The notes under the pieces were generated by a model that saw nothing but the letters and a program-made list of their open reading frames with translations, was not told the origin of the DNA and searched no databases. This document shows positions 8,198 through 35,121 of a DNA stretch of 64,000 nt, piece by piece. Position 1 is the stretch's first letter, and each line of letters begins with the position of its first letter. The stretch covers positions 124,001-188,000 of the forward strand of contig NZ_FOIS01000005.1 in assembly GCF_900110455.1 (NCBI RefSeq). Direction: 5' to 3'. The position numbers and the translations under genes were made by a program. Source of the DNA: Natrinema salifodinae. Its GTDB lineage: Archaea; Halobacteriota; Halobacteria; Halobacteriales; Natrialbaceae.

Positions 8198-8221
8198 GAG
8201 TGCAGTTCCCAATATTATGTT

Positions 8222-8374: not shown

Positions 8375-8920
8375 ATGGCAACTCGTCTCGAGTCCTTCGA
8401 AACTGCCGTCCGGGAAACGACGGCGTCGACGATCCGGGCGACGCCCGAAACCGTCGAGGAGGCGCTGAGCGACGCGATCGCCGAACCGGCCGTCGGTGCA
8501 CCGCTCCCGTTCGACGACGTCGCGATCGACGACGCGTCGGTACCGATAACGGTCGACCCGACGCGCGAGGAACTGCTCGCGGCCGAGACCGGCGTGACCG
8601 GCGCGGTGCTCGGCATCGCGTCGTACGGCTCCGTCGTGCTCCGCTCGACGACCGATGTCGACGAGTTGGCGGCGCTCTTCCCGGATCGCCACGTCGTGCT
8701 CGTGCGCGAGCGGGACGTCGTCGACGACATGGCGACGGCGTTCGACGAACTGGCGCCGATTTTCGAAGAGGAGGCCGCCGACGCGATAATCGCGACCGGA
8801 CCGAGCGCGACCGCGGACATGGGCGCGCTCGTCTACGGGGCGCACGGGCCGCGCGAGGTCCACGTGATCGTCATCGACGAATCGGAATCGTCGGCGTCGA
8901 CGTCGGGAGGTGGTCGCTGA
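8375..8920 (+). CDS. lutC: LUD-domain protein LutC (lactate utilization)
   Basis: The 181-residue protein is a single LUD domain. It shows the family pattern GVTGAVLGIASYGSVVL, the middle strand RHVVLVRERDVV and the C-terminal IIATGPSATADMGALVYGAHGP. LutC is one of three proteins of the LutABC L-lactate oxidation complex. The reading frame is open far upstream, but the homology and an ATG at 8375 mark the real start. Its stop overlaps the start of the next gene (TGATG), so the two are co-translated. It diverges from aceB across about 180 bp. Confidence 0.85.
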   Translation: MATRLESFETAVRETTASTIRATPETVEEALSDAIAEPAVGAPLPFDDVAIDDASVPITVDPTREELLAAETGVTGAVLGIASYGSVVLRSTTDVDELAALFPDRHVVLVRERDVVDDMATAFDELAPIFEEEAADAIIATGPSATADMGALVYGAHGPREVHVIVIDESESSASTSGGGR

Positions 8921-11214
8921 TGGCGGCGGATCGCCGCCGCAAAGCGGCCCACATCCGCCGGCTCCTCGAAACCGAGGGCGACAGCGTCGAGCAGAACACG
9001 CTCGCGTTCAACGAGGGGCGGTACGAGGCCGTCGACGACCTCGAAGAATACGAGGCGCTCAAAGACCGGGCCACGGCGATCAAAGACGACGCGATCGATC
9101 GGTTACCGGAACTGATCGATCGGGTGACTGAGACCGTCGAAGCAAACGGCGGGACGGTCTACCTCGCCGAGGACGCCGCCGACGCGAACGCGTACGTCCA
9201 GCGAGTCGTCCGCGAGCGGGAGGCCGAGACGGTCGTCAAGTCGAAGTCGATGACGACCGAGGAGATCGACCTCAACGAACACCTCGAGGCCGCCGGCGCG
9301 GACGTCTGGGAGACCGACCTCGGCGAGTTCGTGCTCCAGCTCGCCGAGGAAGCGCCCTCACACATCGTCGCGCCGGCGATCCACAAGTCCCGCGAGGAGA
9401 TCGCACAACTGTTCAACGAGCGCTTCGACCCCGACGAGCCCCTCGAGACGGCCGACGAGCTGACCGCGTTCGCTCGCGACGTCTTAGGCGAGCACATCGA
9501 GGAGGCAGATATCGGGATCACCGGCGCGAACTTCATCGCGGCGGACACCGGGACGATGGCCCTGGTCACCAGCGAGGGCAACGCCCGGAAGTCGGTCGCC
9601 GTCCCGGACACGCACGTGGCCGTCGCGGGCGTCGAGAAGCTCGTTCCAACCGTCCGGGATATTCAGCCGTTCATCGAACTCATCGGCCGATCCGGGACGG
9701 GACAGGACATCACCTCCTACATCTCGTTGCTGACGCCGCCGGTCGACACGCCGCCGCTCCCGGACGCGGACGACGCGCCGATCGGTGACGGTGGCAGCAT
9801 CGGTGGTGACGATGGCGGCGATCGCAACGGCAACCCCGATTCCGACCGGGAGTTCCACCTCGTCTTGCTCGACAACGGGCGCCTGGCGATGCGCGACGAC
9901 GAGCAGCTCCGCGAGACGCTGCGCTGCATCCGGTGTTCGGCCTGCCTGAACTCGTGTCCGAACTTCCAGCAGGTTGGCGGCCACGCCTTCGGCGGCGAGA
10001 CCTACACGGGCGGCATCGCGACGGGGTGGGAGACCGGCGTCCACGGCCAAGAGTCGGCGGCCGAGTTCAACGATCTCTGTACCGGCTGTACGCGGTGTGT
10101 CAACCAGTGTCCGGTCCGGATCGACATCCCGTGGATCAACACGGTCGTCCGCAATCGAGTCAACAACGGCGCCGATCGATCGTCGTTCGACCACCTCGTT
10201 GAGGGGCTCGTCCCGGACGAGGAGGCGCCGGGCTATCCGCTGCAGAAGCGCTTCTTCGGCAACTACGAGACGGTCGCCAAGCTGGGAAGCGCGACCGCGC
10301 CGGTGTCGAACTGGGCGACGGCGTTGCCAGGCGTTCGATCCGCCATGGAGCGAGTCATCGGCGTCGACGACCGGCGCGAACTGCCCGAATTCGAACGGGA
10401 GTCGCTCGTCGACTGGTTCCGCGACCGCGAGCGGACCGCACCCACGGATCCCGACCGGCGGGCCGTCCTCTACCCCGACGTCTACACGAACTACGTCCGG
10501 GTCGAGCGCGGGAAAGCCGCGGTCCGCGCCCTCGAAGCCCTCGGCGTCGCCGTCGAGATTCCCGACGCCCCTGGTAGCGGTCGAGCGCCGCTGTCTCAGG
10601 GCATGATCGCGACGGCGGAGCGAACGGCCGAGTCGGTTGCCGCAACGCTCGAGCCGTACGTCTCGGACGGGTACGACGTCGTCGTCATCGAACCGAGCGA
10701 CCTGGCCATGTTCCGAGACGACTACGAGAAGCTGCTCGCTCCCGACGAATACGACCCGCTGTCGACGAACAGCTACGACCTCTTCGAGTACGTCTACGGG
10801 TTGCTCGAGAACGGGGCCTCGATCGACCGGTTGCGGACGGCCGGCGGCGAGGGGGTTGGCGACGAAGACACAGACGGGGACGACGAGCGTCGCCTGGCCT
10901 ACCACAGCCACTGCCAGCAGCGCACGCTCGGCCTCGAGACGTACACGGAAGCGGTGCTCGATCGCGCCGGCTACGACGTCGCGACCTCCGACGTCGAGTG
11001 CTGCGGCATGGCCGGGAGCTTCGGGTACAAAAGCGAGTACTACGAACTGAGCATGGCAGTCGGCGAGCGATTACGGGACCAGTTCACCGAGCCGGACGTC
11101 CGGGATCGAGCCGTCGTCGCGTCGGGAACGTCGTGTCAGGACCAACTCTCGTCGCTGCTCGCCGATCGGCCGCGCCACCCGATTCGAGTGCTCGACCCCG
11201 GCGAGTCGCGCTGA
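8920..11214 (+). CDS. Fused LutB-LutA iron-sulfur lactate oxidation protein
   Basis: The 764-residue protein joins three modules. Residues 1 to about 300 are a LutB-type LUD domain (VVKSKSMTTEEIDLNEHLE). Residues about 330-400 carry a two-cluster ferredoxin domain with CIRCSACLNSCP (from about 336) and CTGCTRCVNQCP (from about 387). The C-terminal 300 residues are a LutA/GlpC-like CCG domain with HSHCQQRTLGLE (about 662) and ECCGMAGSFGY (about 695). In bacteria these are the separate proteins LutB and LutA. A Gly/Asp-rich linker near residues 285-315 precedes the ferredoxin part. With LutC directly upstream it would oxidise L-lactate to pyruvate. It has the same Fe-S and CCG layout as the two FAD fusions at 28 and 35 kb. 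Confidence 0.88.
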   Translation: MAADRRRKAAHIRRLLETEGDSVEQNTLAFNEGRYEAVDDLEEYEALKDRATAIKDDAIDRLPELIDRVTETVEANGGTVYLAEDAADANAYVQRVVREREAETVVKSKSMTTEEIDLNEHLEAAGADVWETDLGEFVLQLAEEAPSHIVAPAIHKSREEIAQLFNERFDPDEPLETADELTAFARDVLGEHIEEADIGITGANFIAADTGTMALVTSEGNARKSVAVPDTHVAVAGVEKLVPTVRDIQPFIELIGRSGTGQDITSYISLLTPPVDTPPLPDADDAPIGDGGSIGGDDGGDRNGNPDSDREFHLVLLDNGRLAMRDDEQLRETLRCIRCSACLNSCPNFQQVGGHAFGGETYTGGIATGWETGVHGQESAAEFNDLCTGCTRCVNQCPVRIDIPWINTVVRNRVNNGADRSSFDHLVEGLVPDEEAPGYPLQKRFFGNYETVAKLGSATAPVSNWATALPGVRSAMERVIGVDDRRELPEFERESLVDWFRDRERTAPTDPDRRAVLYPDVYTNYVRVERGKAAVRALEALGVAVEIPDAPGSGRAPLSQGMIATAERTAESVAATLEPYVSDGYDVVVIEPSDLAMFRDDYEKLLAPDEYDPLSTNSYDLFEYVYGLLENGASIDRLRTAGGEGVGDEDTDGDDERRLAYHSHCQQRTLGLETYTEAVLDRAGYDVATSDVECCGMAGSFGYKSEYYELSMAVGERLRDQFTEPDVRDRAVVASGTSCQDQLSSLLADRPRHPIRVLDPGESR

Positions 11215-13984: not shown

Positions 13985-14758
13985 CTACGTCTGGACCGAG
14001 TGTTCGATGTAGAGTTCGAGTTCGTTGACGGCACTGAGTATTCGCTCCGGCAGTTCCTCCGTCAATTGGGTCCCTTTCACGCGGTGGGCGGGGCCGGAAA
14101 CGCTCAGCGCACCGAGCACGTCGCCTTCCGAGTCCGTGACGGCCGCGCCGACGGCGTGGACGCCTTCGGTCGTTTCCTGCCGATTGAAAGCGTACCCCCG
14201 CTCTCGGATGCGCTCGCACTCCTCCGTTAACTCCTCGCGGGTCGTGATGGTGTTTTCGCTCACCTTTCCGAGCCCGCGGGTCGCGACGATCTCGTCGAAG
14301 CGCTCTGGAGACATATTCGCGAGGATCGCTTTCCCCGCGGCGCTCGTGTGGAGCGCGCCGCGCTTGCCGACGTGTGCGCCGGTCTGAACCGCGCTCTGTC
14401 CGACCTCCGTGTACAGGTAGACGCGCTCACCGTGTTCCTCCACGATGAACTGGGCGCGCTCGCCCGTTTCGGCGGCCAGCGAATCCACTTTCTCCTTGAT
14501 CATGGGAAAGGCGGTCGTCATTCGCTGTGCGTATCCGCCGACCGTCAGAAACTGAAACCCTATCCGGTAGGTCCCGTTTTCCTGCGTTACGTAATTTCGT
14601 TCTCGAAGGGTAACGAGGTGGCGGTGGATCGTACTCGGCGCGAGTCCGAGATATTCGGATAGCTCGTCCATGGTGGCGCCGTCCAGATCGCGAATCGCGT
14701 CGACAATCTCCAGTGACGTTTCAGTCGTGCGCGCACCGGATTTGGTTTTGTTTGTCAT
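13985..14758 (-). CDS. IclR-family transcription regulator
   Basis: The 257-residue protein has a winged helix-turn-helix (RTTETSLEIVDAIRDLDGA, then LAPSTIHRHLVTLRERNYV) and an effector domain with GKRGALHTSAAGKAILANM and GVHAVGAAV. Three in-frame ATGs lie at 14779, 14767 and 14758. The last gives the normal tail length and is chosen, with moderate certainty. An AT-rich patch GATAATAAATC about 25 bp upstream may be the TATA box. The gene lies upstream of one MFS carrier and divergent from another, so either may be its target. Confidence 0.87.
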   Translation of the reverse strand: MTNKTKSGARTTETSLEIVDAIRDLDGATMDELSEYLGLAPSTIHRHLVTLRERNYVTQENGTYRIGFQFLTVGGYAQRMTTAFPMIKEKVDSLAAETGERAQFIVEEHGERVYLYTEVGQSAVQTGAHVGKRGALHTSAAGKAILANMSPERFDEIVATRGLGKVSENTITTREELTEECERIRERGYAFNRQETTEGVHAVGAAVTDSEGDVLGALSVSGPAHRVKGTQLTEELPERILSAVNELELYIEHSVQT

Positions 14759-15363
14759 GGGTGTCATTCCATCACGCACGATAATAAATCATATGGCATT
14801 CGGAGGTGTGCCGGGCCACAGACCGCGTCCGCGACCGAATTCGAATAGTCAGAATTCGATCCGGGACGACGAACCGTAGCGATCGAGCACCGGTAGTCTC
14901 CGGTAGTACTGTGGGGATGGGTGGCACATAATTCCCGCTCTGAGCGTTCGAGTCAGTGATAATACAGCCGACACCGGTGAGAGAGGTTTACGAAGATACG
15001 ACTGTAAGGGGGAGGCGCCTATCGGGGACGGCGCGCGAATCGATCTGCGAAGACAGCGGTCGATCTGCGCCAGAAGAGTCGAAATACGGTTCCGATTTTT
15101 CGAATACCGGACATCAACCGCTCTCCGTTGAAGTATCGTCATCGAGGGATCAGAGACAATATGGAAACGGGAGCGTTTCCCGTATATTCAGTCGTAATAA
15201 ATCCGTTGTGGCCGCCTGTACTCGATATCCGCATATGCGGGATAGAACGGGACAATACTCCTCGTACCGGTGATGAGCCGGGGAAATCGATTAAGTGGCT
15301 CGCCCGCTTTCAGAGTCCCAATGATAGTTGCGCGTCGTCGCTCGGCGCCCGAGGTGGAGGGGA
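14759..15363. other. Divergent intergenic region between IclR and MFS genes
   Basis: This 600-bp stretch must hold both promoters. AT-rich candidates are GATAATAAATC near 14780 and GATAATACA near 14958. No coding character was seen in the short frames. Confidence 0.5.
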
Positions 15364-16581
15364 ATGAATGAGAACGATCGATCGATTACCGGGTTTACGA
15401 TGCTCGCCCACGGGATCTTCCACACGTACGAGCTGAGTATTCCCATTTTCATCGTGATCTGGTTGGACGCGTTCGACGTCTCCGCCTTCGTGCTCGGACT
15501 CGTCGTCAGTATCGGGTACGGACTGATCGGCGTCGGGGCGATCCCGAGCGGCGTGCTTTCGGACGCGTACGGTTCGCGCCGGTTGATCGTCGCGTCCGTG
15601 ATCGGCATGGCCGGCGGATTCTTTCTGCTCGCGCTCGCGCCGAACGTGGTCGTCCTCACCGCGGCGGTTATCGTCTGGGGCGCCGCGGCGAGCGTCTATC
15701 ATCCCGCCGGTCTCTCGCTTATCAGTCGCGGGGCGAAACAGCGCGGCACGGTGTTTGCGTATCACGGCGTCGGCGGAAACGTCGGAACGGCGTTCGGCCC
15801 GCTGCTCACGGCGCTCCTGTTGCTCTTTCTCGACTGGCGAGCGGTCGTAGCGCTGCTCACCGTCCCCGCGATCGGCGTCGTCGCGCTCGGGTCGCTGATC
15901 GACTTCGACGAAGACGCGGCCGCGTCGACGACGGACGGCGGCACCGCGCCGACGAGCCTCGAATCGGTGGTCTCGGACTCTAAACTGCTGTTCAGCGCCG
16001 GCTTTCTCCTCACGTTTATCGCCATCATGATCTACGGAGTGTACTACCGGGGCCTGCTGACCTTCCTCCCGGACATGATCGGCGACCTCCCGCAGTTCGG
16101 CACGTACGCCGTCCTCGGGCAGGAAGCCGAACCAGCGCAGTACGTCTACACGGGGATACTGACGATCGGCATCTTCGGCCAGTACGCGGGCGGCCGGGTC
16201 ACCGACCACGTTCGAACGGAGTACGCGTTCTTTTCGACACTCCTCGCGCTCGGCGTCCTGGCGTTCGTGTTCATCCCGTCCGTCGGACGGGGACTCGCGC
16301 CGTTCCTGCTCGTGTGCGTCGCGCTCGGATTCTTCCTGTACGCGACCGCACCGATCTACCAGGTCGTGATCGCGGAGTACGCGGCGGCCGACGTCCACGG
16401 ACTGTCGTACGGCTACGCATACCTCGGGATGTTCGGATTCGGAGCGGGCGGGGCCGCGCTGGCCGGTTCGCTGCTTACGTACGCGAGCGAGACGGCGCTG
16501 CTCGCGACGCTGGGAGCGCTGGCGCTCGTCGGCGCGGGTATCGTCCTGTCGCTTCTGACAATCTCCACTGTCGGTAGGTAA
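15364..16581 (+). CDS. Major facilitator superfamily transporter
   Basis: The 405-residue protein has about twelve membrane segments, with the MFS motif A-like GVLSDAYGSRRLIVAS between helices 2 and 3 and a repeat of it, GGRVTDHVRTEYAFF, in the second half. The ATG at 15364 follows a strong GGAGGGG ribosome-binding site, whereas the open frame upstream lacks one. It is followed after 42 bp by a CoA-transferase gene on the same strand, so it could import the acid that the enzyme activates. The substrate is unknown. Confidence 0.82.
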   Translation: MNENDRSITGFTMLAHGIFHTYELSIPIFIVIWLDAFDVSAFVLGLVVSIGYGLIGVGAIPSGVLSDAYGSRRLIVASVIGMAGGFFLLALAPNVVVLTAAVIVWGAAASVYHPAGLSLISRGAKQRGTVFAYHGVGGNVGTAFGPLLTALLLLFLDWRAVVALLTVPAIGVVALGSLIDFDEDAAASTTDGGTAPTSLESVVSDSKLLFSAGFLLTFIAIMIYGVYYRGLLTFLPDMIGDLPQFGTYAVLGQEAEPAQYVYTGILTIGIFGQYAGGRVTDHVRTEYAFFSTLLALGVLAFVFIPSVGRGLAPFLLVCVALGFFLYATAPIYQVVIAEYAAADVHGLSYGYAYLGMFGFGAGGAALAGSLLTYASETALLATLGALALVGAGIVLSLLTISTVGR

Positions 16582-16623: not shown

Positions 16624-17874
16624 ATGGCAGCCCGTGATAGCAGCGCGATCCTCGAAGACGTTACTGTAGTCGACCTGACGACGTTCGTCACCGGCGGATT
16701 CGCGACGTTGATGCTGGCGAACCAGGGCGCGGACGTGATCAAAATCGAACGCCCCGAGGTGGGCGACGATAGCCGCCACTCCGGACCGCCGTTCGTCGGG
16801 GTCTCCGACTACGACGGCCCGGGCAAGCCGGCGTCTCAACACGGGGAATCCCCGTACTTCTGGACGGTAAACTACGATAAGCGGAGCGTCGAACTCGACC
16901 TGAAGACGGACGAGGGACTGGAAATCTGCCGAGAGCTAATCGCCGAGGCCGACGTCGTGGTCGAGAACTTCCGGCCGGGGACGGCCGAGCGACTCGGCCT
17001 CGGATACGACGACCTCCAAGACGACCACCCCGAACTCGTCTACTGCTCCATTTCCGCGTTCGGTGAGTCCGGACCGTGGAGCGACCGACCCGGATACGAC
17101 CTGCTGATCCAGGGGATGAGCGGCATCATGAGCGTAACCGGGCCCGACGACGGGGAGCCGGTGAAAGTCGGGTTACCGCAGACGGACCTGATCACAGCGA
17201 TGTGGGCAGCGTTCGGCATCGTCAACGCCCTCTACCGCCGCGAACGAACCGGCGAGGGCGAACGCGTCGAACTGGGGATGTTGGACGCGACGCTACCGTG
17301 GCTCACGAAACAGGCCGCGAAGGCGTTCGTCGGCGACGAGCCGGATCGGATGGGGACGAAAGACCCCGTGCTCGCGCCCTACCAGAGCTATCCGACCGCG
17401 GACGGCTACCTGAACGTCGCCTGCGCGAACCAGAAGCTCTGGAAACAGCTCTGCGAGGAAATCGAGCGGCCGGAACTCGCCACGGACCCGCGATTCGAAA
17501 CGAACGCCGATCGCGTCGAGAACATGGACGCCCTCGAGGCGGAACTGTCCGAGACGTTCGCCGAGCGCCCCACCGATGAATGGGTCGAGCGCCTGGCCGA
17601 CGAGGCCGGACTCCCGGTCGGTCCCGTCTACGACGTCACCGAGGCGTTGGAAAACGAACAGGTGGACGCCCGGAACGCCGTCGACTCGGTCACCCACCCC
17701 GCGGCCGGCGAGATTCCGATCCTCGAGCACCCGCTAAACTTCGCCGCGGCCGAGAGCGGATTCGACGACGCCCCGCCGCTGCTCGGCGAGGATACCGAAG
17801 ACGTCATCGCAGAGTTAGGCTACACCCAGTCCGAGATCGGCGACCTCCGCGAGAAGGGGGTCTTTTCCGGGTAA
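16624..17874 (+). CDS. Class III (CaiB/BaiF) CoA-transferase
   Basis: The 416-residue protein has the family pattern: VVDLTTFVTGGFATLMLANQ near the N-terminus, GADVIKIERP, VVENFRPGTAERLGLGYDDL and VKVGLPQTDLITAMWA, where the Asp is the expected acyl-anhydride-forming residue. It moves CoA between carboxylic acids through such an intermediate. The start at 16624 opens the conserved domain at once. It lies between an MFS carrier and a TPP enzyme and has a counterpart at 19830-21020. The substrate pair cannot be read from the sequence. Confidence 0.88.
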   Translation: MAARDSSAILEDVTVVDLTTFVTGGFATLMLANQGADVIKIERPEVGDDSRHSGPPFVGVSDYDGPGKPASQHGESPYFWTVNYDKRSVELDLKTDEGLEICRELIAEADVVVENFRPGTAERLGLGYDDLQDDHPELVYCSISAFGESGPWSDRPGYDLLIQGMSGIMSVTGPDDGEPVKVGLPQTDLITAMWAAFGIVNALYRRERTGEGERVELGMLDATLPWLTKQAAKAFVGDEPDRMGTKDPVLAPYQSYPTADGYLNVACANQKLWKQLCEEIERPELATDPRFETNADRVENMDALEAELSETFAERPTDEWVERLADEAGLPVGPVYDVTEALENEQVDARNAVDSVTHPAAGEIPILEHPLNFAAAESGFDDAPPLLGEDTEDVIAELGYTQSEIGDLREKGVFSG

Positions 17875-18077
17875 GACGGTTCCGACCCGCGTGAGCGGCC
17901 GGCGGTAGCGACTGCACTCTCGGTACGACGGACTCGGACGCGCGACGGATCCGGGCGTGCAACCGCGCAAAACGCGTTTTTCCGCCGCCGCGTCAGTCGG
18001 AAACAGTGACGACCACCGTCATCTTTATCACTCTGGTCACAGGAAAGAGTAGGTAATTCGGACCCGGAGAGAAGATC

Positions 18078-19697
18078 ATGGACGTCACTCACGCAATCGC
18101 GAACATTCTGAAAGAGGAAGGAGTAGAGTACCTGTTCGGTTTCCCGAGTAACCCGCTCTTGGACACCGGCGCGGCCGAGGAGGTCGGCATCCGAACCGTC
18201 GTCACCAGGCAGGAACGGACCGCGGTCCACATGGCGGACGCGATCGGCCGGCTGTCGTCCGGCGAGGAGATCGTCGCCTTCGCGTGCCAGCACGGGCCGG
18301 GAACGGAGAATTCGTTCGGGGCCGTAGCACAGGCGTACGGCGAGTCGGCGCCGCTCGTCGCGATCCCGGCCGGCTACGACGAGGCGAAGACGGACGTCGA
18401 TCCCAAGTTCAACTCCCTCGTCAACTACCAGCACGTCAGCAAGTCCTGCGAGCAACTGACTAGCCCGGACGCCGTCGGCGAGACAATGCGGCGCGCGTTC
18501 AGCGCGGTGCGAAACGGTCGGCCGCGGCCGGCCGTCGTCGAGGTCCCCAAGGACGTCTTCTACGAGGAGGTCCCCGGCGAACTCGACTACCACCCGACGT
18601 CGTCGAACCGGAGCGGCCCCGATCCGGACGGCGTCGAGGAGATCGTCGAGGTGCTCCTCGAGGCGGAGCGGCCGGTCATCTACGCCGGCCAGGGCGTCCA
18701 CTACGCGAAAGGGTGGGATGCGCTTCGAGAGTTGGCTGAGACGCTCGAGGCGCCGGTCGCAACCAGCCTCAACGGGAAGAGCGCGTTTCCGGAGACCCAC
18801 CCGCTGTCCCTCGGCGCTGGGAGCAAGAGCGAACCGGGCCAACTCGCGCACTTCCTCCGGGAGGCGGACGTCATCTTCGGGATCGGGTGTAGCTTCACGG
18901 ACACCGCGTACGGGATCACCGTCCCGGACGGGAAGACGATCGTCCACTCGACGCTCGACCCGACGGACATCGACAAGGACGTCGAGTCGGCGTACTCGCT
19001 CGTCGGCGACGCGAAACTCACCCTCGAAGCGCTGGTCGAGTCGATCGAGCGGCGCCTCGACGGGGAGTCCCGCGGCCGGTTCGACGACGTCGCCGCGGAG
19101 ATCGAGTCGGTCAGAGAGGAGTGGCTCGACGAGTGGCGGCCGAAATTGACCTCGGACGAGGTGCCGATCAACCCCTATCGGGTCATCGACGAACTGACCA
19201 CCGTCGTCGACGCCGAGGACGCGATCATCACCCACGACGCGGGGAACCCGCGGGACTTCCTCGCCCCGTTCTGGGAGTCGACCGAGCCGCTGTCGTACAT
19301 CGGCTGGGGGAAGACCACCCAACTCGGCTACGGGCTCGGCCTGGCGATCGGCGCGAAGATCCACAATCCGGAGAAGCTCTGCATCAACATCATGGGGGAC
19401 GGCGCGATCGGGATGACCGGCCTGGACTTCGAAACGGCCGTTCGGGAGGACGTCCCGATCCTGACGATCCACCTGAACAACTACGAGATGGCGTCGTACG
19501 ATACGCCCTTCTCGGGCGACTTCGCGGACGTCGGAACCGCTCTCGGCGGCTACGGCGAGCGGGTCGAGGACCCGGACGAGGTGGCGCCGGCCCTCGAGCG
19601 GGCGATCGAGCAAACCGAAGCCGGGACGCCGGCGCTCCTCGAGATTATCACGGCCAAGGAGACCGAACTCTCGCGGCCGGACCTCGAGGGGGAGTGA
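18078..19697 (+). CDS. Thiamine-diphosphate enzyme of the acetolactate synthase/decarboxylase family
   Basis: The 539-residue protein has the three-domain TPP fold. The N-terminal Pyr domain has the activating Glu in VTRQERTAVHMADAIGRL, the middle domain the text RPVIYAGQGVHYAKG, and the C-terminal PP domain the cofactor motif from GDGAIGMTGLDFE to IHLNN. Members split or join C-C bonds next to a carbonyl. Lying between two class III CoA-transferases, it recalls oxalyl-CoA decarboxylase or 2-hydroxyacyl-CoA lyase clusters, but clear Oxc-specific residues were not recognised. A TATA-like TCTTTATCAC near 18020 and a GGAG before the ATG support the start. Confidence 0.82.
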   Translation: MDVTHAIANILKEEGVEYLFGFPSNPLLDTGAAEEVGIRTVVTRQERTAVHMADAIGRLSSGEEIVAFACQHGPGTENSFGAVAQAYGESAPLVAIPAGYDEAKTDVDPKFNSLVNYQHVSKSCEQLTSPDAVGETMRRAFSAVRNGRPRPAVVEVPKDVFYEEVPGELDYHPTSSNRSGPDPDGVEEIVEVLLEAERPVIYAGQGVHYAKGWDALRELAETLEAPVATSLNGKSAFPETHPLSLGAGSKSEPGQLAHFLREADVIFGIGCSFTDTAYGITVPDGKTIVHSTLDPTDIDKDVESAYSLVGDAKLTLEALVESIERRLDGESRGRFDDVAAEIESVREEWLDEWRPKLTSDEVPINPYRVIDELTTVVDAEDAIITHDAGNPRDFLAPFWESTEPLSYIGWGKTTQLGYGLGLAIGAKIHNPEKLCINIMGDGAIGMTGLDFETAVREDVPILTIHLNNYEMASYDTPFSGDFADVGTALGGYGERVEDPDEVAPALERAIEQTEAGTPALLEIITAKETELSRPDLEGE

Positions 19698-19829
19698 AGT
19701 AGCGAACCGGCGGAGTACTACCGGTTCACCGGTCGATTTCGCAGACGAACCGTTCGACAATTCTCGACGCTCGAAATCGAATCGCCACTCGCGGAGCGAC
19801 GGGATCGGAGACGGGAAAGCGCGGCCGAT

Positions 19830-21020
19830 TCAGTTCTCGCCGAACGCGCCGTCCTTGGTCCACGCTTCCAGCGTCGTCTGATCGTCCGCGATGTCCGCGA
19901 ACACCTCCTCGGTGTGTTCGCCGAGGCGGGGCGCCGGTGCGCGAACGACGTCGTCGTGGTCGGGGAAGTTGATCGGGTGACCGGGAAGCAGGCACTCGCC
20001 CCAGTCGGGATCCTCGTGGGATACGACGAGGTCGCGGGCCGCCGTCTGGTCGTGCTCGACCACGTCCGCCACGTCGTTGATCGGTCCGCAGGGGAAGCCG
20101 GCGTTCGTCAGCCGCTCGAGCCAGAACTCGGTCGTCTCCAACTCGAGTTCGGCCTGGATGATGTCGATCACGGTCCCGGCGTTCTCACGGCGCAGTTCGT
20201 TCGTCGGATACTCGCGGAGTTCTTTGCGTCCGAGCAGATCGACGAAGTCGTCCCACCGGTCGTCGCTGGGAACGCCGGTGACGATCGCGCCGTCGGCGGT
20301 CTCGAACCGCTGGTACGGGACGAGCGTCTGGTGGGTCACGCCCTGGGGTCCCGGGACCGTTCCGTCCATTGAGTACTCGGTGAGGTACTCGTTCAGCAGC
20401 GTCACGATGGAATCGAACAGCCCCACGTCGAACTTTCCGGTGAAGTCATCGGCGCGGTCGCGCTCGTACAGTCGAGCGAGGACGCCGAGCGCCGCGAACA
20501 TCCCCGTCGTGAGATCGCCGATCGCCTGGCCGACCTTGACGGGAGCGCCGCCTTCGGAACCGGTCACGCTCATGATCCCGCCTTCCGCTTGGAGGATGAG
20601 ATCGAGCCCCGGCTTCTCCTTCATCGGCCCGGTCTCGCCGTAGCCCTTGATGCTCGCGTAGACGATGTCGGGGTTTCGCTCGCGGACGTCGTCGTAGCCG
20701 ATGCCGAGCTTGTCGGTGACGCCGTACCCGAAGTTTTCGACGAACACGTCCGCGTCGGCGAGCAGTTCGAGCGCCGCCTCTCGCCCGGCGCTCGATTTGA
20801 GGTCGAGCGTCACCGAGCGCTTGTTGCGGTTGTTCGCCATGAAGTAGCCGGACTTGCCCCCAGGGCCGATCCCCTGGGACCGCGCCGGATCGCCGACGCC
20901 GGGGCGCTCGATTTTCACGACGTCCGCACCCATGTCGGCGAGCAGCGCCCCGCAGAAGGGGCCCGCGCGGTGGCCGGTCATCTCTACGACCGAAACGTCG
21001 GCCAGTGGTCCGTCGCTCAT
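19830..21020 (-). CDS. Class III (CaiB/BaiF) CoA-transferase
   Basis: The 396-residue protein carries GADVVKIERPGVGDPAR, MANNRNKRSVTLDLKS, VFVENFGYGVTDKLGIGYDD and VKVGQAIGDLTTGMFA with the catalytic Asp. The long upstream open frame is shadow; the ATG at 21020 starts the domain. It begins 2 bp after the stop of the crotonase gene on the same strand, so the two form an operon. That pairing fits activation of an acid to its CoA ester followed by hydration, isomerisation or hydrolysis. It is convergent with the TPP gene. Confidence 0.87.
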   Translation of the reverse strand: MSDGPLADVSVVEMTGHRAGPFCGALLADMGADVVKIERPGVGDPARSQGIGPGGKSGYFMANNRNKRSVTLDLKSSAGREAALELLADADVFVENFGYGVTDKLGIGYDDVRERNPDIVYASIKGYGETGPMKEKPGLDLILQAEGGIMSVTGSEGGAPVKVGQAIGDLTTGMFAALGVLARLYERDRADDFTGKFDVGLFDSIVTLLNEYLTEYSMDGTVPGPQGVTHQTLVPYQRFETADGAIVTGVPSDDRWDDFVDLLGRKELREYPTNELRRENAGTVIDIIQAELELETTEFWLERLTNAGFPCGPINDVADVVEHDQTAARDLVVSHEDPDWGECLLPGHPINFPDHDDVVRAPAPRLGEHTEEVFADIADDQTTLEAWTKDGAFGEN

Positions 21021-21022
21021 CG

Positions 21023-21808
21023 CTACCCCTCCTCGTTGAATTCGTCGACCAATTCGCGACGCTCGTCGGTAGCGAACTGCTCCCACCAGAGTTCCGCCTC
21101 GCGCTCCCGCGCCTCCTCGAGGCTGCCGGCTTGAGCCGAGTAATTGAGCGCCCGCTTCGAGTTCTTCACCGCCTTTCGGCCGGTGTTCTGGATGCCGGCG
21201 ACGATCTCGGCGACGGTTTCGTCGAGTTCGGCTCTGGGGACGGCGTGGTTGATCAGCCCGATCCGTTCCGCTTCGGCCGCGTCGATCATCCCCGCCGTGT
21301 ACACGAGTTCTTTCGCCTTCGCCTCGCCGACGAGTTCGATGGCCCGCCACGTCGACCCGCCGGTCGGGATCTGTCCGATGTTGGCAGTCGGGACGCCGAA
21401 CTGTGCGTCCTCGACCGCGACGCGGACGTCGCAGTACATCGCGAAGATCAGGCCGCCGCCGACGCAGTACCCGTTGATCTTCGCGATGACCGGTGCGTGG
21501 CACTCGTAGGGCTTTCGGTACATCTCGTAGAACAGTTCCTGACGGTCTCGCTGTAACGGATCGTGCTCCGACGCCGGACCGGCGTACTGCGAGATGTCCG
21601 CGCCGGCAGAAAACGCGTCGTCTCCTTCTCCCGTGATCACGACGGCGTCGACGTCGCGGTTTAACTGAATCTCGTCGAACGCGCGGTTGAGGTCGAACAT
21701 GACCTCGTTGTTGAGGGCGTTGTAGACCTCGGGCCGATGAAACTCGATCGTCGCGATGCCGTCTTCGATATCGAGAGTGATGCTCTCGTAGGCGCTATAG
21801 CTAACCAT
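21023..21808 (-). CDS. Enoyl-CoA hydratase/isomerase (crotonase) family protein
   Basis: The 261-residue protein has the two oxyanion-hole segments AFSAGADISQYAG and INGYCVGGGLIFAMYCDVRV. At the place where hydratases have the first catalytic Glu (PEV/PEI before LGLIPG) this protein reads GVPTANIGQIPTGGST, so one of the two classical glutamates is missing. It may thus be an isomerase, decarboxylase or hydrolase rather than a plain hydratase. It is the first gene of an operon with the downstream CoA-transferase and probably acts on the CoA ester that enzyme makes. Confidence 0.85.
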   Translation of the reverse strand: MVSYSAYESITLDIEDGIATIEFHRPEVYNALNNEVMFDLNRAFDEIQLNRDVDAVVITGEGDDAFSAGADISQYAGPASEHDPLQRDRQELFYEMYRKPYECHAPVIAKINGYCVGGGLIFAMYCDVRVAVEDAQFGVPTANIGQIPTGGSTWRAIELVGEAKAKELVYTAGMIDAAEAERIGLINHAVPRAELDETVAEIVAGIQNTGRKAVKNSKRALNYSAQAGSLEEAREREAELWWEQFATDERRELVDEFNEEG

Positions 21809-21985: not shown

Positions 21986-22414
21986 TCACTCGACGCGGAC
22001 CGAAACGACGGGAACGGGCGAATTGAGCAGAACCGACTGCGCGACGCTCCCGAACAGCGCTTTTCCGACCGGCGAGCGTTTCCGCCCCGCGACGACGACG
22101 TAGCTCGCCTGGTCGTCGTCCGCGTAGTTGACGATCTCGTTCGCGGGATCGCCCATGAGGCCGACCGGCGTCGCGTCGATGTCCGCCCGTTCGATGGCCT
22201 CCGCCGCGATATCCGCAGCGATTTGCACCACGTCCCCGGTCGGGATAGTCTCACCCGTTTCGTTTACGTTCGTCCGCTCGAGAGAGACGAACTCGTTGCG
22301 GGTGAGAACGTGTACGACTTCGACCGGTTCGTCGATCGCCTCACCCAATTCGGCCGCGTGAGCGACGATTCCGGGCGCTCTCTCGGATCGATCGACTGCG
22401 GCAATGACAGTCAT
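21986..22414 (-). CDS. Universal stress protein (UspA family)
   Basis: The 142-residue protein begins with MTVIAAVDRSERA and ends with the nucleotide-binding pattern VVAGRKRSPVGKALFGSVAQ and VLLNSPVPVVSVRV, the Gly-x2-Gly-x9-Gly-Ser/Thr signature of ATP-binding Usp proteins. An in-frame ATG at 22435 exists, but the second start at 22414 begins the conserved strand directly. Such small Usps are often placed next to transporter genes in haloarchaea. Here it is divergent from the TctCBA importer and may respond to or tune it. That link is inference. Confidence 0.85.
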   Translation of the reverse strand: MTVIAAVDRSERAPGIVAHAAELGEAIDEPVEVVHVLTRNEFVSLERTNVNETGETIPTGDVVQIAADIAAEAIERADIDATPVGLMGDPANEIVNYADDDQASYVVVAGRKRSPVGKALFGSVAQSVLLNSPVPVVSVRVE

Positions 22415-22668
22415 AGCTACTCTCTCATCCTCCATCCGTAAAGGATTTACTCGGGTTTCGTGGCTCGTCCCCGTGATCAGGACGTCGCTGCGCTACGAGC
22501 CCGAACTCCCGCCGTCCGTTGACCGCCTCCGAACGCATCGCGATATCGAGAGCGTCGGGATTCCACGCTTCTTCCGCCGACGCCGTTCGGGGTACGAAAC
22601 GCTGATCGACGGCCAAAACGACCACTTCGAATAATAACGGCGGTATATGGCCGAAAATAAGAGGAAGC

Positions 22669-22754: not shown

Positions 22755-23828
22755 ATGTCCGAGAGAACGCAACGACGGAAGCTGGCAGCAGGGAGCATAT
22801 CGACCAGGCGGCGGTTTCTGCGAATAGCCGGCGCCGGGACGGCTGTATCGCTAGCAGGGTGCCTGACGGAAGAGGGGCCGGGGGTCGACGCCGGCGAGGA
22901 TTGGGAACCGTCCGAGTCGATTCGATACATCGTCCCGTACGACGAAGGCGGCGGAACTGACGTGTACGCCCGCGGTATCGTCGAACCGCTCACCGACGCC
23001 ATGGGACAGGACATTCAGATCGACAACGTCCCCGGTGGCGGCGGCCTCAACGGATTCGGTGACCTCTACGGCTCCCAGCCGGACGGACACACCATCTCGG
23101 GGAGCGCCGTCCCGCTCGAAGTAACGCCGCAACTGCTCGAGGATCCCGGGTTCGACCAACGCGATCTGGAAGGCCTCGGCATCATCGGTCGATCGACGTG
23201 GTGTCTCGTCGTTAACGAGGAGTATCAAGGGGAAGTCGAGACGTTCGACGACGTCAGGGAGAAACACAACTCCGGCGAATGGGACTCGATCGGCATTCAG
23301 GAGCCGGGAAGCCCGCAGGACATTATGACGCTGCTGGCGAAACACGAACCGGAGTACGCCGACGAGTACGACTGGCAGTGGGAGAATCGCGTGCAGTACA
23401 CCGGGACCGGACCGATCGCGGAGGCGGTGACGTCCGGCGAGGTGCCGTGCGGAATCGGAACCGACGCTGGGACACGGCCCAACGTCGATTCCGGCGGGGT
23501 GTACCCGGTCTGTACGTTCTTCAGCGAGGGGACCGACGTGTATCCCGATATTCCGTCGGTCACCGACGAGGGGTACCCGGACATGGACTTCGTCGCGGGC
23601 GTGAACCGGGGCCTGTACGCGCCGCCGGACACGCCGGAGAGCGTTATCGACGAACTCTCGGGCCGAATCGAAGAAGCCACCCAGGACCAGCAGTACGAAG
23701 AGTGGTCCGAGGAAACCGGGAACCCGATCTTCTTCGAGGGCCCGGACGCCGCGAACGCGGCCATCGACGACGCCTTCGAGGAGTTCGAAGACCTGGAAAT
23801 CGTCAGCCTCATCGAAGAACACTCCTAG
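22755..23828 (+). CDS. TctC-type solute-binding lipoprotein of a tripartite tricarboxylate transporter
   Basis: The 357-residue protein has a Tat signal with the twin arginine TRRRFLRIAGAGTA and a lipobox SLAGC, so it is exported folded and lipid-anchored outside the cell. The mature part shows the TctC fold: IRYIVPYDEGGGTDVYAR, a DNVPGGGGLNG anion loop, and SIGIQEPGSPQDIM. TctC proteins bind citrate-like acids, terephthalate or other carboxylates. It is the first gene of tctC-tctB-tctA. The lack of nearby citrate genes and the presence of CoA-transferases point to another carboxylate. Confidence 0.88.
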   Translation: MSERTQRRKLAAGSISTRRRFLRIAGAGTAVSLAGCLTEEGPGVDAGEDWEPSESIRYIVPYDEGGGTDVYARGIVEPLTDAMGQDIQIDNVPGGGGLNGFGDLYGSQPDGHTISGSAVPLEVTPQLLEDPGFDQRDLEGLGIIGRSTWCLVVNEEYQGEVETFDDVREKHNSGEWDSIGIQEPGSPQDIMTLLAKHEPEYADEYDWQWENRVQYTGTGPIAEAVTSGEVPCGIGTDAGTRPNVDSGGVYPVCTFFSEGTDVYPDIPSVTDEGYPDMDFVAGVNRGLYAPPDTPESVIDELSGRIEEATQDQQYEEWSEETGNPIFFEGPDAANAAIDDAFEEFEDLEIVSLIEEHS

Positions 23829-23862: not shown

Positions 23863-24495
23863 ATGATATCAGATACAATTGAAAACAAAGTAACGGCAGA
23901 GCAGATAATGCTCGTTATTCTGGTCGGGGTGAGCGCGCTGTTCCTCGTCGAGCCGGTTCTGGAAAATTACCCCGACGATGCCAGAGTATTCCCCCAGCTA
24001 ACCGCGTCGATCGTCTTCATCGGGTCGCTGTTACTCCTCTTTCGGAACTATCTCCCGGGACCGCTTCGGACGTTCGTCGCCGAGAGTATTTCGATCACGA
24101 GCACCGACGAGTCGGACATCCCCGGGGCGGAAGAGGACCGAGAGGAGTCGGAGGAGACCGAAGCGGAATACAAAAAGGAGACGATCGGGACCGAGTACGG
24201 CTACGAGGTGAACGAGACGGTGTTTATGGTCGTCACGACGATTCTGTACTTCGCGGGCGGGTGGGCCGCCGGCTTCCTCTTTGCGACGCCGATTTACATC
24301 CTCGGCTACACGCTCTGGTTCCGCACCAGTCCCGTCATCAGTGTCGTACTCGCTACGCTGGGGACGATCGTCATCTACCTCTTCATGACGTACCTCGTTC
24401 TCCCGTTCGATCAAGGTCACATCTTCGACTTCAGCCCGTTCCTGCCGCTGTTGCTCGACGGGCTGTCCGCGTCGCTTCCCGGAGGTGGGACGTAG
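23863..24495 (+). CDS. TctB small membrane subunit of a tripartite tricarboxylate transporter
   Basis: The 210-residue protein has four to five membrane helices with a charged Glu-rich loop (about residues 80-110) in the middle, as in the TctB/DUF1468 family. It starts 34 bp after tctC and ends directly before the tctA start, so the three are one operon. TctB joins the large channel subunit TctA in the membrane. The sequence is poorly conserved in this family, so the call rests on topology and position. Confidence 0.8.
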   Translation: MISDTIENKVTAEQIMLVILVGVSALFLVEPVLENYPDDARVFPQLTASIVFIGSLLLLFRNYLPGPLRTFVAESISITSTDESDIPGAEEDREESEETEAEYKKETIGTEYGYEVNETVFMVVTTILYFAGGWAAGFLFATPIYILGYTLWFRTSPVISVVLATLGTIVIYLFMTYLVLPFDQGHIFDFSPFLPLLLDGLSASLPGGGT

Positions 24496-25998
24496 ATGGC
24501 GGCGGTTGACGCCTTCTTCGAGGGACTGTCGATTGCGCTGAGCTGGCCGACGATCGGATGGCTCGCGGTCGGGATGATGCTCGGGATCATCCTGGGGGCG
24601 TTACCCGGTATCGGGTCCCCGGTCGGAATGGCAATCGTGTTACCGCTGACGCTCCCGCTCGAGACGACGGCCGCGATCATCCTCCTGGTCGCGATCTACA
24701 GCGGCGCGATGTTCGGCGGGTCGATCGCCGCGATCCTCCTCAATGCGCCGGGAACGGAGTCGGCCGCGGCGACGACGCTCGACGGGTATCCGATGGCTCA
24801 AAACGGCCTGGCGAAGAACGCGCTGGCGATCGCGACGACCGCATCGGCGCTGAACGGCTTCCTCGCGGCGATAGCGCTGATCCTCCTCTCGCCGCTTCTC
24901 ATCGAGATCGTCCTCGCGTTCGGGTCGCCGGAGTACTTCCTCCTCGCCATCCTCGGCATCTCCCTCATCACGATCGTCACGCAGGGATCGATCGTCAAGG
25001 GGCTCGTCGCCGGCGCGCTCGGATTCATGATCTCGACGATCGGCACCGCGATCCTCAGTCCGCGGCCGCGCTACACGTTCGGCCAGTTCGGCCTCTACGA
25101 CGGAATCGACTTCGTCGCGGCGCTGATCGGCATGTTCGCGTTCGCCGAGATGATGAAACTCGCTGCACAAAAGCAGATTACCCAGGAGGACCTCGAGATC
25201 GCGGGGAGCGTCCGCGAGGGGATGATGACGATATTCAAGTATCCGGTGACGACGCTCAAGTCCGGGCTGATCGGGATGGGAATCGGCATGATCCCGGGAT
25301 CGGGTGCGACGACGTCGACGTTCGTCGCCTACGCGGAAGAGGCCCGCTCGTCGGCCGAAGACGGGGCGTTCGGCGACGGAGACCCGCGCGGCGTCATCGC
25401 GCCCGAGGGGGCGAACAATCCGACCGTCAGCGGATCGCTCATCCCGACCCTGTCGTTCGGTATTCCGGGAAGCGGCTCGACGGCCGTCCTGCTCGGCGGC
25501 ATCCTGATGCACGGGCTCCAGCCGGGGCCCGTCCTCTTCGGCGAACAGCTCCACATCACGTACGCGCTGTTTATCTCGCTGTTCCTCAGCAACGTCCTCA
25601 TCGTTCTCGTGGGACTGACGGTGATCCCGTACGCGAGCAAGATCACCGAAATCGACACGAACCTCATCATTCCGATGGTCATCGTCCTCTCGTTCGCGGG
25701 GGCGTACACGCTCCACCAAAACTGGTGGGACGTCGGCGCCGTCATCGTGCTCGGCGTCCTCGGATTCTACATGGTCCGGTACAACTACTCGGTCATCGCG
25801 TTCGTCCTCGGCATCGTCCTCGGGCCCATCGCCGAGGAGAACTTCTTCCGGTCGCTGCAGATCTCCGGTGGCGAGTACACGATCTTCGTTGACCCGGTGA
25901 ACCAACCGCTCTCATTCCTGCTTTCCCTGGCGATTCTGCTCGTGCTGTTCGGGCCGTTCGTCAAGGGACGAGTCGAACGGGCCGTCAGCCGGACCTGA
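24496..25998 (+). CDS. TctA large membrane subunit of a tripartite tricarboxylate transporter
   Basis: The 500-residue protein has about eleven to twelve membrane helices and the TctA motifs GALPGIGSPVG near residue 35, GSIAAILLNAPGTESAAAT, and in the second half MIPGSGATTSTFVAYAEEA and SFGIPGSGSTAVLLGG. These glycine-proline loops probably form the substrate pathway. Transport is driven by an ion gradient. The ATG directly follows the tctB stop. It completes the TctCBA importer. Confidence 0.92.
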   Translation: MAAVDAFFEGLSIALSWPTIGWLAVGMMLGIILGALPGIGSPVGMAIVLPLTLPLETTAAIILLVAIYSGAMFGGSIAAILLNAPGTESAAATTLDGYPMAQNGLAKNALAIATTASALNGFLAAIALILLSPLLIEIVLAFGSPEYFLLAILGISLITIVTQGSIVKGLVAGALGFMISTIGTAILSPRPRYTFGQFGLYDGIDFVAALIGMFAFAEMMKLAAQKQITQEDLEIAGSVREGMMTIFKYPVTTLKSGLIGMGIGMIPGSGATTSTFVAYAEEARSSAEDGAFGDGDPRGVIAPEGANNPTVSGSLIPTLSFGIPGSGSTAVLLGGILMHGLQPGPVLFGEQLHITYALFISLFLSNVLIVLVGLTVIPYASKITEIDTNLIIPMVIVLSFAGAYTLHQNWWDVGAVIVLGVLGFYMVRYNYSVIAFVLGIVLGPIAEENFFRSLQISGGEYTIFVDPVNQPLSFLLSLAILLVLFGPFVKGRVERAVSRT

Positions 25999-27744: not shown

Positions 27745-28159
27745 CGGTATGGTCAGTCTCTCAGCGCCGTGGCGCGTGCAACAGCGCGTGGTTCGATGAC
27801 ACGTCATCGGTCTATTTATTCGTTGGGACGACACCGGCGAAAGTCCCGGATCGCGACCCGCAACGCGGCACAACAGTTATGTGTACTCCCTGTACTACCG
27901 TGTACCACGCACAGGATATGCAAGCGATTAGCAAACAGCCGGTAGCTGCGGCGGCCCCCGCGGACGGCCGCGGGATCGCGTTCGATTCCGCATTCGGATC
28001 GCGTTCCGGTGGGGGAGCGATCGACGGCTACCGGACGCGAGCTGACGGCGCGGGAGTCGCGTCTCGCGTCCGACCCGATGCGTGAGACGAACGCCGTTCT
28101 CACTTGCACTGACGGAGACGCGGGCAGCCGAGACGACACCAGCACAGACGGAACACATA
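27745..28159. other. Divergent intergenic region
   Basis: This stretch holds the promoters of the BASS carrier and of the first FAD/Fe-S dehydrogenase. TGTAC is repeated around 27881-27905. No coding frame was recognised. Confidence 0.45.
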
Positions 28160-32176: not shown

Positions 32177-33232
32177 ATGGCACACGAAGTGGCGAGTATC
32201 CCGGGCGACGGTATCGGCCCGGAAGTCATCGATGCGGCGCAGCCGGTCTTCGACGACGTTTCTGACCGGTTCGGGTTCGAGCTCGAATTGACGCGATACG
32301 ATTGGGGGTCCGAACGGTACCTCGAGAGCGGGTCGATGATGCCCGACGACGGACTTGCCGAGCTCGCGGGCTACGACGCGATCCTGCTGGGCGCGGTCGG
32401 CCACCCCGACGTCCCGGATCACGTGACGCTGAACAACCTCCTCCTCCCGATCCGCAAGGGCTTCGACCAGGCCGTCTGCAAGCGACCGGCGATCCTCTTC
32501 GACGGCGTCGAGAGCCCACTCGAGGGATACGACGGCGGCGACATCGACTTCGTCGTGTACCGCGAGAACACCGAAGGGGAGTACGCCGACGTGGGCGGAC
32601 AGGAACATCCGGGCCACGACCACGAGGTCGCGGTCCAGAGCGCGGTCTTCACGCGGACCGGCACCGAGCGGATCGTTCGAGCCGCGTTCGAGGCGGCGAC
32701 TGAGCGCGAAGGGCGAGTGACCAGCATCACGAAATCGAACGCGCAGGCACACAGCATGGTATTCTGGGACCGGATCGTCGAGGACGTCTCGGCCGAGTAC
32801 CCGGATGTGACGGTCGAGCGCCTGCTCGTCGACGCCGCGAGCATGGACTTCATCCGGCGACCGGAGGAGTTCGACGTCGTCGTCGCGTCGAACCTCTTCG
32901 GCGACATCCTGACCGACATCGGGGCGATCATCACCGGGAGCATGGGGCTCGCCCCGTCGGCCAACGTCAACGTCACGGGGGAGTACCCCTCGATGTTCGA
33001 GCCGGTCCACGGCAGCGCGCCCGATATCGTCGGCGACGGCGTCGCGAATCCGCTCGCGACGATCCTCTCCGCCGCGATGCTGTTCGACCACCTCGGTGAA
33101 TCCGAGGCCGGCGACGCGGTCTGGACCGCCGTCACCGATCAGCTCGCGGATCCGGACGCCCCCCGGACGCCCGATCTGGGCGGGACCGCCACGACGGCGC
33201 GGGTGGTCGAGGACCTCCGCACCCGCATCTAA
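32177..33232 (+). CDS. Tartrate/D-malate dehydrogenase (decarboxylating), isocitrate/isopropylmalate dehydrogenase family
   Basis: The 351-residue protein has SIPGDGIGPEVIDAAQPV at the N-terminus, the substrate loop TLNNLLLPIRKGFDQAVCKR, VVYRENTEGEYADVGG, the catalytic-Lys region SITKSNAQAHSMVFWDRI and the metal site DAASMDFIRRPEEFDVVVAS. The LLPIRKGFDQ loop, in place of the isopropylmalate or isocitrate pattern, fits the TtuC/DmlA group, which oxidises D-malate or tartrate with NAD. The AT-rich patch just upstream suggests a leaderless or short-leader message. Its place among hydroxyacid dehydrogenases supports an acid-catabolic role. Confidence 0.85.
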   Translation: MAHEVASIPGDGIGPEVIDAAQPVFDDVSDRFGFELELTRYDWGSERYLESGSMMPDDGLAELAGYDAILLGAVGHPDVPDHVTLNNLLLPIRKGFDQAVCKRPAILFDGVESPLEGYDGGDIDFVVYRENTEGEYADVGGQEHPGHDHEVAVQSAVFTRTGTERIVRAAFEAATEREGRVTSITKSNAQAHSMVFWDRIVEDVSAEYPDVTVERLLVDAASMDFIRRPEEFDVVVASNLFGDILTDIGAIITGSMGLAPSANVNVTGEYPSMFEPVHGSAPDIVGDGVANPLATILSAAMLFDHLGESEAGDAVWTAVTDQLADPDAPRTPDLGGTATTARVVEDLRTRI

Positions 33233-35100: not shown

Positions 35101-35121
35101 TTGATGTCGCAGTTAGGCACA

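Follow-up and report, generated by a model that had tools for sequence, protein, structure and literature searches.

A conserved accessory island, probably for carboxylate catabolism, in haloarchaea, with a crotonase lacking its catalytic glutamates and a possible link to glyoxylate

We have analyzed a stretch of 64,000 nucleotides (the window; G000:C5:124001-188000) from the 4.27 Mb genome of the haloarchaeon Natrinema salifodinae, in which genes of coenzyme A (CoA)-dependent carboxylic acid metabolism are gathered at positions 16624-21808. This segment holds two CaiB-type class III CoA-transferases (Pfam PF02515), a thiamine pyrophosphate (TPP) enzyme with three TPP_enzyme domains and a crotonase-fold protein (ECH_1). 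The genes for a major facilitator superfamily (MFS) transporter (15364-16581, PF07690), which is a conserved neighbor lying upstream of the first CoA-transferase, for that transferase (CaiB1, 16624-17874) and for the TPP enzyme (18078-19697) are on the + strand. Those for the crotonase (21023-21808) and the second CoA-transferase (CaiB2, 19830-21020, 2 bp downstream of the crotonase gene) are on the - strand, pointing toward them. A preliminary description of the window had placed two CoA-transferases around a TPP enzyme with a crotonase, and the coordinates are borne out, as are these assignments by the Pfam families. We find that these genes are the core of a conserved accessory island, probably for carboxylate catabolism, clustered beyond chance. 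It is a mobile gene cluster common to many haloarchaea, uncharacterized so far.

The distribution of the genes was surveyed in 292 haloarchaeal genomes. The TPP family NF004807 is found in 32 of them. A search with the crotonase at an E-value limit of 1e-60 gave matches in 32 genomes, from which we took as orthologs those scoring at least 358 bits (at least 61% identity), found in 24 genomes; eight weaker matches (47-55% identity) were excluded from the counts. The TPP gene is present in 22 of the 24 genomes with a crotonase ortholog (Fisher p = 2e-23, kinship being ignored), and by their coordinates the two genes lie within 12 kb of each other in 17 of those 22. They are on different contigs in one genome (G129), and apart in four others (G219, G080, G232 and G289). 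The TPP, crotonase and malate synthase (AceB) genes occur in none of the 15 genomes of the same genus that were listed, and the island is therefore accessory.

The neighbors of the crotonase are similarly recurrent. Across the 24 genomes we counted a CoA-transferase in 23, the TPP enzyme in 22, a universal stress protein in 21, a GlcD-type oxidase in 20, the transporter components TctA in 19 and TctC in 16, and an MFS transporter in 17. Less frequent are the D-2-hydroxyacid dehydrogenase Ddh (14), a tartrate-dehydrogenase-type enzyme (13), an IclR-type regulator (11), malic enzyme (9), a cupin (9), a thiolase-like protein (5) and glycerate kinase (0). The counts cover 10-20 kb per locus with the loci of one genome merged, such that the TPP gene is counted in G080, G219, G232 and G289 though it does not adjoin the crotonase there. 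For the outer genes they are lower bounds because the fetched stretches were short; the full island of Natronococcus occultus does contain a glycerate kinase.

The island occurs on chromosomes and, in several genera, on plasmids. Crotonases of more than 70% identity were found on eight plasmid records, seven of which are also among the best 15 records for the TPP enzyme; the eighth (Halomarina BND7) is outside those 15. Plasmid 2 of Natronococcus occultus carries a single run of 32.6 kb, comprising a thiolase-like pair, IclR, MFS, TPP enzyme, CaiB2, crotonase, universal stress protein, TctCBA, cupin and an oxidase containing flavin adenine dinucleotide (FAD) and iron-sulfur (Fe-S) centers, and continuing with IclR, AceB, a VOC protein, the tartrate-dehydrogenase type, a PPC protein, Ddh, malic enzyme, a DUF4147/MOFRL glycerate kinase, a second oxidase and L-lactate permease. 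The window contains a matching set in a different order, extending from the malate synthase (6893-8212) to a permease (38355-40076), and lacks the thiolase-like pair, VOC protein, malic enzyme and glycerate kinase. The CaiB1 gene of Natronococcus occultus (L072:6595-7353; L218:9059-10560) is broken by a change of frame in the deposited sequence, and is missing from the PLSDB gene table. The islands of Haladaptatus and Halorussus add an enolase-superfamily dehydratase, the tricarballylate dehydrogenase TcuA and MmgE/PrpD proteins, and in Halorussus the genes for glycerate kinase (DUF4147), malate synthase, the GlcD type, Ddh and the TPP enzyme are consecutive.

Could this be a chance gathering of unrelated catabolic genes in a gene-rich region of a megaplasmid? 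Several islands do sit on plasmids rich in other catabolic genes, and gene order and orientation vary among lineages. Nevertheless, the same set recurs in families f1, f3, f4 and f9, and its members co-occur strongly in pairs; this explanation, already disfavored, is very improbable.

The thiolase-like protein, accompanied by a small Zn-ribbon-like protein, is found at the edge of an island (L072:2093-3531), with counterparts in L074, L075, L077, L097, L106-L108, L110 and L111. It has IENTSA[TS]G where the thiolase Cys would be expected, and may be an aldolase-type member, with Ltp2 as the comparison. We considered it as the retro-aldolase of the island given the missing Cys, but rejected it, as it occurs in only 5 of the 24 genomes and is absent from the window.

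The crotonase has lost both of its catalytic glutamates. In alignments with solved crotonases and with controls, the place of the first Glu is taken by Ile121 (CVGGGLI) and that of the second by Thr141 (VPTANIG); we take the pair to correspond to residues 144 and 164 of rat enoyl-CoA hydratase. The preliminary description had reported the loss of one Glu. The loss stands, but it is not confined to a single residue. Among the controls, Glu is present at both positions in CaiD and PaaF of Escherichia coli and in three other crotonases of the genome of the window (L196, L197 and L199), and the pair is absent from MenB, PaaG, ScpB and the remaining crotonases of this genome. In 29 of 31 cluster members (the window protein and 30 others) the first position is occupied by Ile, Val or Thr and the second by Thr or Val. 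The exceptions, L094 (Glu and Glu) and L096 (His and Pro), are distant crotonases rather than orthologs, and were brought in because the clustering was loose. Both Glu residues are also missing from four orthologs on named plasmids. The pair is replaced in every cluster ortholog examined, and the loss is therefore common to the clade.

The protein matches the ECH_1 profile (PF00378, 201 bits), having the fold of the two-Glu enoyl-CoA hydratases and lacking their Glu pair, and its nearest relatives by sequence are ordinary short-chain enoyl-CoA hydratases. An AlphaFold model (pLDDT 75, i.e., moderate) has the ordinary fold, with Z up to 30.8 and a root-mean-square deviation of 2.4 over 251 residues relative to crotonases. 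The model is uninformative on the reaction because ordinary hydratases, MenB and FCHL match it alike. Judged by its sequence, the protein probably catalyzes a reaction different from the usual hydration.

The TPP enzyme belongs to family NF004807 (PRK06154), with 855.6 bits against a cut-off of 607; the name given to this family by NCBI is merely "thiamine pyrophosphate-requiring protein." The TPP-activating Glu46 and the GDG...NN motif are retained. The protein is 27% identical to E. coli glyoxylate carboligase (Gcl), 25% to IlvB and 23% to oxalyl-CoA decarboxylase (Oxc), and scores 200 bits with the glyoxylate carboligase profile NF008431, for which the cut-off is 791. 2-Hydroxyacyl-CoA lyase is represented among its hits to solved structures. 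In a tree the NF004807 sequences form a single clade (100/100), split into a haloarchaeal part and one that is mainly bacterial; Oxc, Gcl and PoxB fall outside it, on long branches whose placement is unsure. About 11 residues immediately after the NN motif, found in bacterial members, are missing from eight of nine aligned haloarchaeal members including the window protein. The ninth (L094), in which they are present, is placed with the bacterial part of the tree. Absence of this segment could alter the lid of the active site. We regard the enzyme as a candidate carboligase or decarboxylase forming tartronate semialdehyde.

These data bear on the possibility that the genes degrade oxalate via oxalyl-CoA and formyl-CoA, a resemblance that had been drawn in the preliminary description. 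CaiB1 would then be a formyl/oxalyl-CoA transferase and the TPP protein an oxalyl-CoA decarboxylase. CaiB1 also resembles transferases of the YfdE/Frc type, and in a contig of SAR324 a CaiB gene precedes the TPP gene. Set against this are the low identity to E. coli Oxc (a lack of obvious Oxc marks had been remarked on in that description), the position of Oxc outside the clade, albeit with long branches, in the phylogenetic comparison suggested there, the absence of an oxalyl-CoA decarboxylase model from the best 25 NCBIfam matches of the TPP protein and the absence of any formate or formyl-CoA annotation from the islands read, where the neighbors are enzymes of glyoxylate, glycerate and hydroxyacids. 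Oxalate catabolism is thus very unlikely.

NF004807 is also widespread in bacteria, with at least 529 confirmed stretches, of which the best 80 were kept. There are isolated cases with 2-hydroxyacid oxidases beside relatives of the TPP enzyme (L185 and Salipiger); in Salipiger the TPP gene adjoins that of a flavin mononucleotide-dependent 2-hydroxyacid oxidase, and TctCBA is nearby.

CaiB1 and CaiB2 both match the CoA_transf_3 profile (PF02515, 410 and 384 bits, respectively) and have the conserved Asp that we take to be the catalytic Asp of the class III family. With 40% identity between them, they fall into two clean, separate clades, each with its own cluster orthologs, in a tree in which the placement of the reference sequences is unsure. 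No NCBIfam equivalog scored above its cut-off for either. The nearest solved relatives are succinate-hydroxymethylglutarate CoA-transferase, which is the closest to CaiB1, and enzymes of the YfdE type; by sequence both proteins are closest to dicarboxylate CoA-transferases. Together with the conserved cluster and the Asp in both proteins, this similarity agrees with the earlier proposal of a CoA-dependent route for a carboxylic acid served by a TctCBA importer.

The nearest transferases being succinyl-CoA-dependent ones for dicarboxylates, the substrate might be a C4 or C5 dicarboxylate similar to itaconate, citramalate or malate. CaiB would form the acyl-CoA, the crotonase would be an unusual hydratase or lyase, the products would be pyruvate or glyoxylate plus acetyl-CoA, and the TPP enzyme would act on compounds derived from pyruvate. 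In keeping with such a route, Halegenticoccus (L109) has a CitE-type lyase, the islands of Haladaptatus and Halorussus have TcuA, and malic enzyme occurs in 9 of the 24 genomes. However, CitE and TcuA are not constant members of the island, the crotonase lacks both hydratase glutamates, and the pattern of reductase and glycerate kinase (see below) suggests glyoxylate and glycerate instead. We consider this route unlikely.

The wider island in the window begins with the gene of a glyoxylate-consuming malate synthase of the haloarchaeal AceB type (6893-8212, - strand; NF041315, 816.3 bits on 6893-8134, cut-off 780). A search of the whole genome with NF041315 gave 855.9 bits at G000:C5:130896-132182, the sole match above that cut-off. 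No adjoining isocitrate lyase gene was recognized in the window. An IclR-type regulator (13985-14779, - strand) adjoins the MFS gene; its top NCBIfam match is BhcR, at 158 bits under a cut-off of 350. Between the malate synthase and IclR genes lie a LutC-like gene, read by eye, and one for an L-lactate oxidation protein of the LutB/LdhH type (8375-11214).

Beyond the crotonase are the universal stress protein (21986-22435, - strand, PF00582) and, on the + strand, a tripartite tricarboxylate importer, comprising the substrate-binding protein TctC (22755-23828, recognized by reading its sequence), TctB (23863-24495) and the permease TctA (24496-25998), all with counterparts so annotated in Natronococcus occultus. 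Next on the + strand is a FAD/Fe-S 2-hydroxyacid dehydrogenase fusion of the GlcD/YdiJ type (28082-31126; top match NF049975, 563 bits, under a cut-off of 1350), followed by the tartrate/D-malate dehydrogenase-type enzyme (32177-33232; TIGR02089, 461.4 bits, slightly under the cut-off of 470.4). A PPC/PCC-domain protein (33342-33767, - strand, PF03479), which stands beside the TPP enzyme or Ddh in other islands too, precedes Ddh (33977-34915, + strand; NF041369, 497.9 bits, cut-off 400). Ddh, which is often divergent from the TPP gene in other genomes, is a candidate reductase of glyoxylate, hydroxypyruvate or tartronate semialdehyde. A second FAD/Fe-S fusion (35104-38118, + strand; NF049975, 551.7 bits, also under the cut-off) is followed at the island edge by an LctP-type lactate/glycolate permease (38355-40076, - strand; TIGR00795, 313.5 bits, cut-off 341), with its counterpart in Natronococcus occultus.

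Elsewhere in the window a luciferase-like monooxygenase and a zinc alcohol dehydrogenase flank a second TPP enzyme, of acetolactate synthase type (57786-59528; TIGR00118, 438 bits, cut-off 538); an enolase-superfamily protein is encoded at 55173-56408. At the left end (2983-5382) a KDG/KDGal kinase and an adjoining protein of the galactonate dehydratase family, both above cut-off, make up a sugar-acid module. A 12-bp string chosen post hoc, GGTATTGTRAYM, occurs exactly twice in the window, upstream of the crotonase and of TctC. We do not count it as evidence, because 10 of 100 shuffles give two matches at one mismatch or fewer.

What might be the metabolite on which the island converges? AceB is present in 13 TPP genomes, and in 10 of these its gene is within 20 kb of that of the TPP enzyme or crotonase. 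Genes resembling tartronate semialdehyde reductase (at least 290 bits, in a search limited at E 1e-60) are found in 22 of 32 TPP genomes and 26 of 260 others (p = 1e-12, uncorrected). They lie 3-11 kb from the TPP or crotonase gene in five genomes (G156, G182, G208, G219 and G252); for three of these five the best family name is 2-hydroxy-3-oxopropionate reductase, all under its cut-off. All seven TPP genomes of family f1 are among the ten without such a reductase, and in each of the seven a malate synthase gene lies no more than 14 kb from that of the TPP enzyme or crotonase. Canonical glyoxylate carboligase was found above cut-off in none of the 292 genomes, leaving a vacancy for an enzyme taking glyoxylate toward glycerate. 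BhcR is a sensor of glyoxylate. Taken together, the position of AceB, the co-occurrence of the reductase, the carboligase vacancy, the BhcR-like regulator and the neighbors in Salipiger indicate that glyoxylate or a nearby 2-oxoacid is the likely meeting point. As for the imported acid, the tartrate-dehydrogenase-type enzyme and the enolase-superfamily dehydratases of some islands favor a hydroxylated one such as tartrate.

We therefore consider a CoA-dependent route centered on glyoxylate, in which a hydroxylated di- or tricarboxylate would be cleaved at a C-C bond to glyoxylate (or glycolate) and the TPP enzyme would make tartronate semialdehyde. We infer its substrate, direction and order of steps, and the reactions of the crotonase and TPP enzyme, from the genes and their context, and give the whole about an even chance of being correct. 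The acid would be imported by TctCBA, the MFS protein or both, and CaiB2, assigned by family to the CoA-transferases, would load CoA onto it. The crotonase would hold the acyl-CoA in the usual oxyanion hole and split it into glyoxylate and a short acyl-CoA. The two-Glu hydration mechanism is impossible without the pair, so that C-C cleavage of the retro-aldol or retro-Claisen type is most likely. CaiB1 may recycle CoA from the short acyl-CoA, while the GlcD-type FAD/Fe-S enzyme might oxidize a released 2-hydroxyacid, e.g., glycolate to glyoxylate. The NF004807 enzyme would form tartronate semialdehyde either from glyoxylate, by carboligation, or from oxaloglycolate, by decarboxylation, this oxaloglycolate possibly being supplied by the tartrate-dehydrogenase-type enzyme. 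Ddh or a tartronate semialdehyde reductase, with glycerate kinase, would then lead to 2-phosphoglycerate and hence to central metabolism. In lineages like that of the window malate synthase would also use glyoxylate, joined by malic enzyme where this is present.

A number of observations weigh against this glyoxylate-centered route. The C-C-cleaving role of the crotonase is deduced from missing residues and gene context. E. coli Gcl has Val where the TPP protein has Glu46, and the latter is therefore not an enzyme of the Gcl type. No consistent partner genes of the island kind were found across 58 bacterial loci of TPP relatives. AceB is linked by position alone, as it is not enriched in the TPP genomes (13 of 32, compared with 91 of 260 others; p = 0.33). 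In 60 of 61 genomes the reductase matches fall short of the curated cut-off, and there is none in the genome of the window itself. Finally, comparison of upstream regions revealed no convincing regulatory site common to the cluster genes.

Some of the same genes could be divided between two independent, adjoining modules. One would be a CoA-free pathway of the tartrate type, with tartrate dehydrogenase, the TPP protein as oxaloglycolate decarboxylase, Ddh and glycerate kinase; the other, consisting of CaiB2, crotonase and CaiB1, would serve another acid. Ten of the 32 TPP genomes indeed lack a crotonase ortholog. Loci of the Halococcus type have malic enzyme, the tartrate-dehydrogenase type, Ddh, TPP enzyme and glycerate kinase with no crotonase, and in a Thermomicrobiales contig the tartrate-dehydrogenase type is immediately upstream of the TPP gene. 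Glycerate kinase is also employed in the tartrate route of Agrobacterium vitis (PMC2063504). Yet the co-occurrence and proximity of the TPP and crotonase genes described above (22 of 24 genomes, within 12 kb in 17) mean that the modules are seldom apart, and we think it rather unlikely that they are independent.

The glyoxylate-centered route can be taken a step further, to a form that we consider unlikely. Here the crotonase would be a new acyl-CoA lyase acting on CoA esters of hydroxylated dicarboxylates, cleaving for instance tartryl-CoA to glyoxylate and glycolyl-CoA or malyl-CoA to glyoxylate and acetyl-CoA, with the CoA-transferases loading and unloading CoA and NF004807 as the missing tartronate semialdehyde synthase of haloarchaea, giving a CoA-dependent pathway of the tartrate type. 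In the literature searched (titles and the openings of abstracts) we found no description of such a pathway or of the gene cluster, and no occurrence of the terms PRK06154 or NF004807. The Glu-less crotonase clade and NF004807 are two families of the island for which no activity is known. If a substrate were assigned, NF004807, common in bacteria too, would gain a function, and there would be a candidate for the conversion of glyoxylate to glycerate in haloarchaea that have no canonical Gcl, and possibly a new crotonase that cleaves C-C bonds of acyl-CoA.

The island may be compared with several known systems. Like the glycerate pathway (glycolate oxidase, Gcl, tartronate semialdehyde reductase and glycerate kinase), it combines a FAD/Fe-S 2-hydroxyacid oxidase, a TPP enzyme, a reductase and glycerate kinase; it differs in that its TPP enzyme is of family NF004807 rather than Gcl, and in the addition of a CoA-transferase and crotonase front end. 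The tartrate route of Agrobacterium vitis has a dehydrogenase step. With that system (tartrate dehydrogenase and the glycerate kinase TtuD) the island has in common the tartrate-dehydrogenase type and a class II glycerate kinase, but unlike the island the route, in the passages considered, is without CoA-transferases, crotonase and TPP enzyme (PMC2063504). In oxalate degradation (Frc, YfdE and Oxc) a class III CoA-transferase is likewise found beside a TPP enzyme, though one from a different family. The carnitine cluster of E. coli similarly has a class III CoA-transferase (CaiB) near a crotonase (CaiD), but the identity to CaiB is only 24-25%, and CaiD, unlike the window crotonase, keeps both Glu residues. 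MenB has the same fold, likewise lacks the Glu pair and performs C-C chemistry. EchA20 and BadI, which we class by description with MenB as crotonase-fold enzymes without the Glu pair, are reported to be ring-opening hydrolases, the former acting via a reverse Dieckmann cyclization (PMC5380842).

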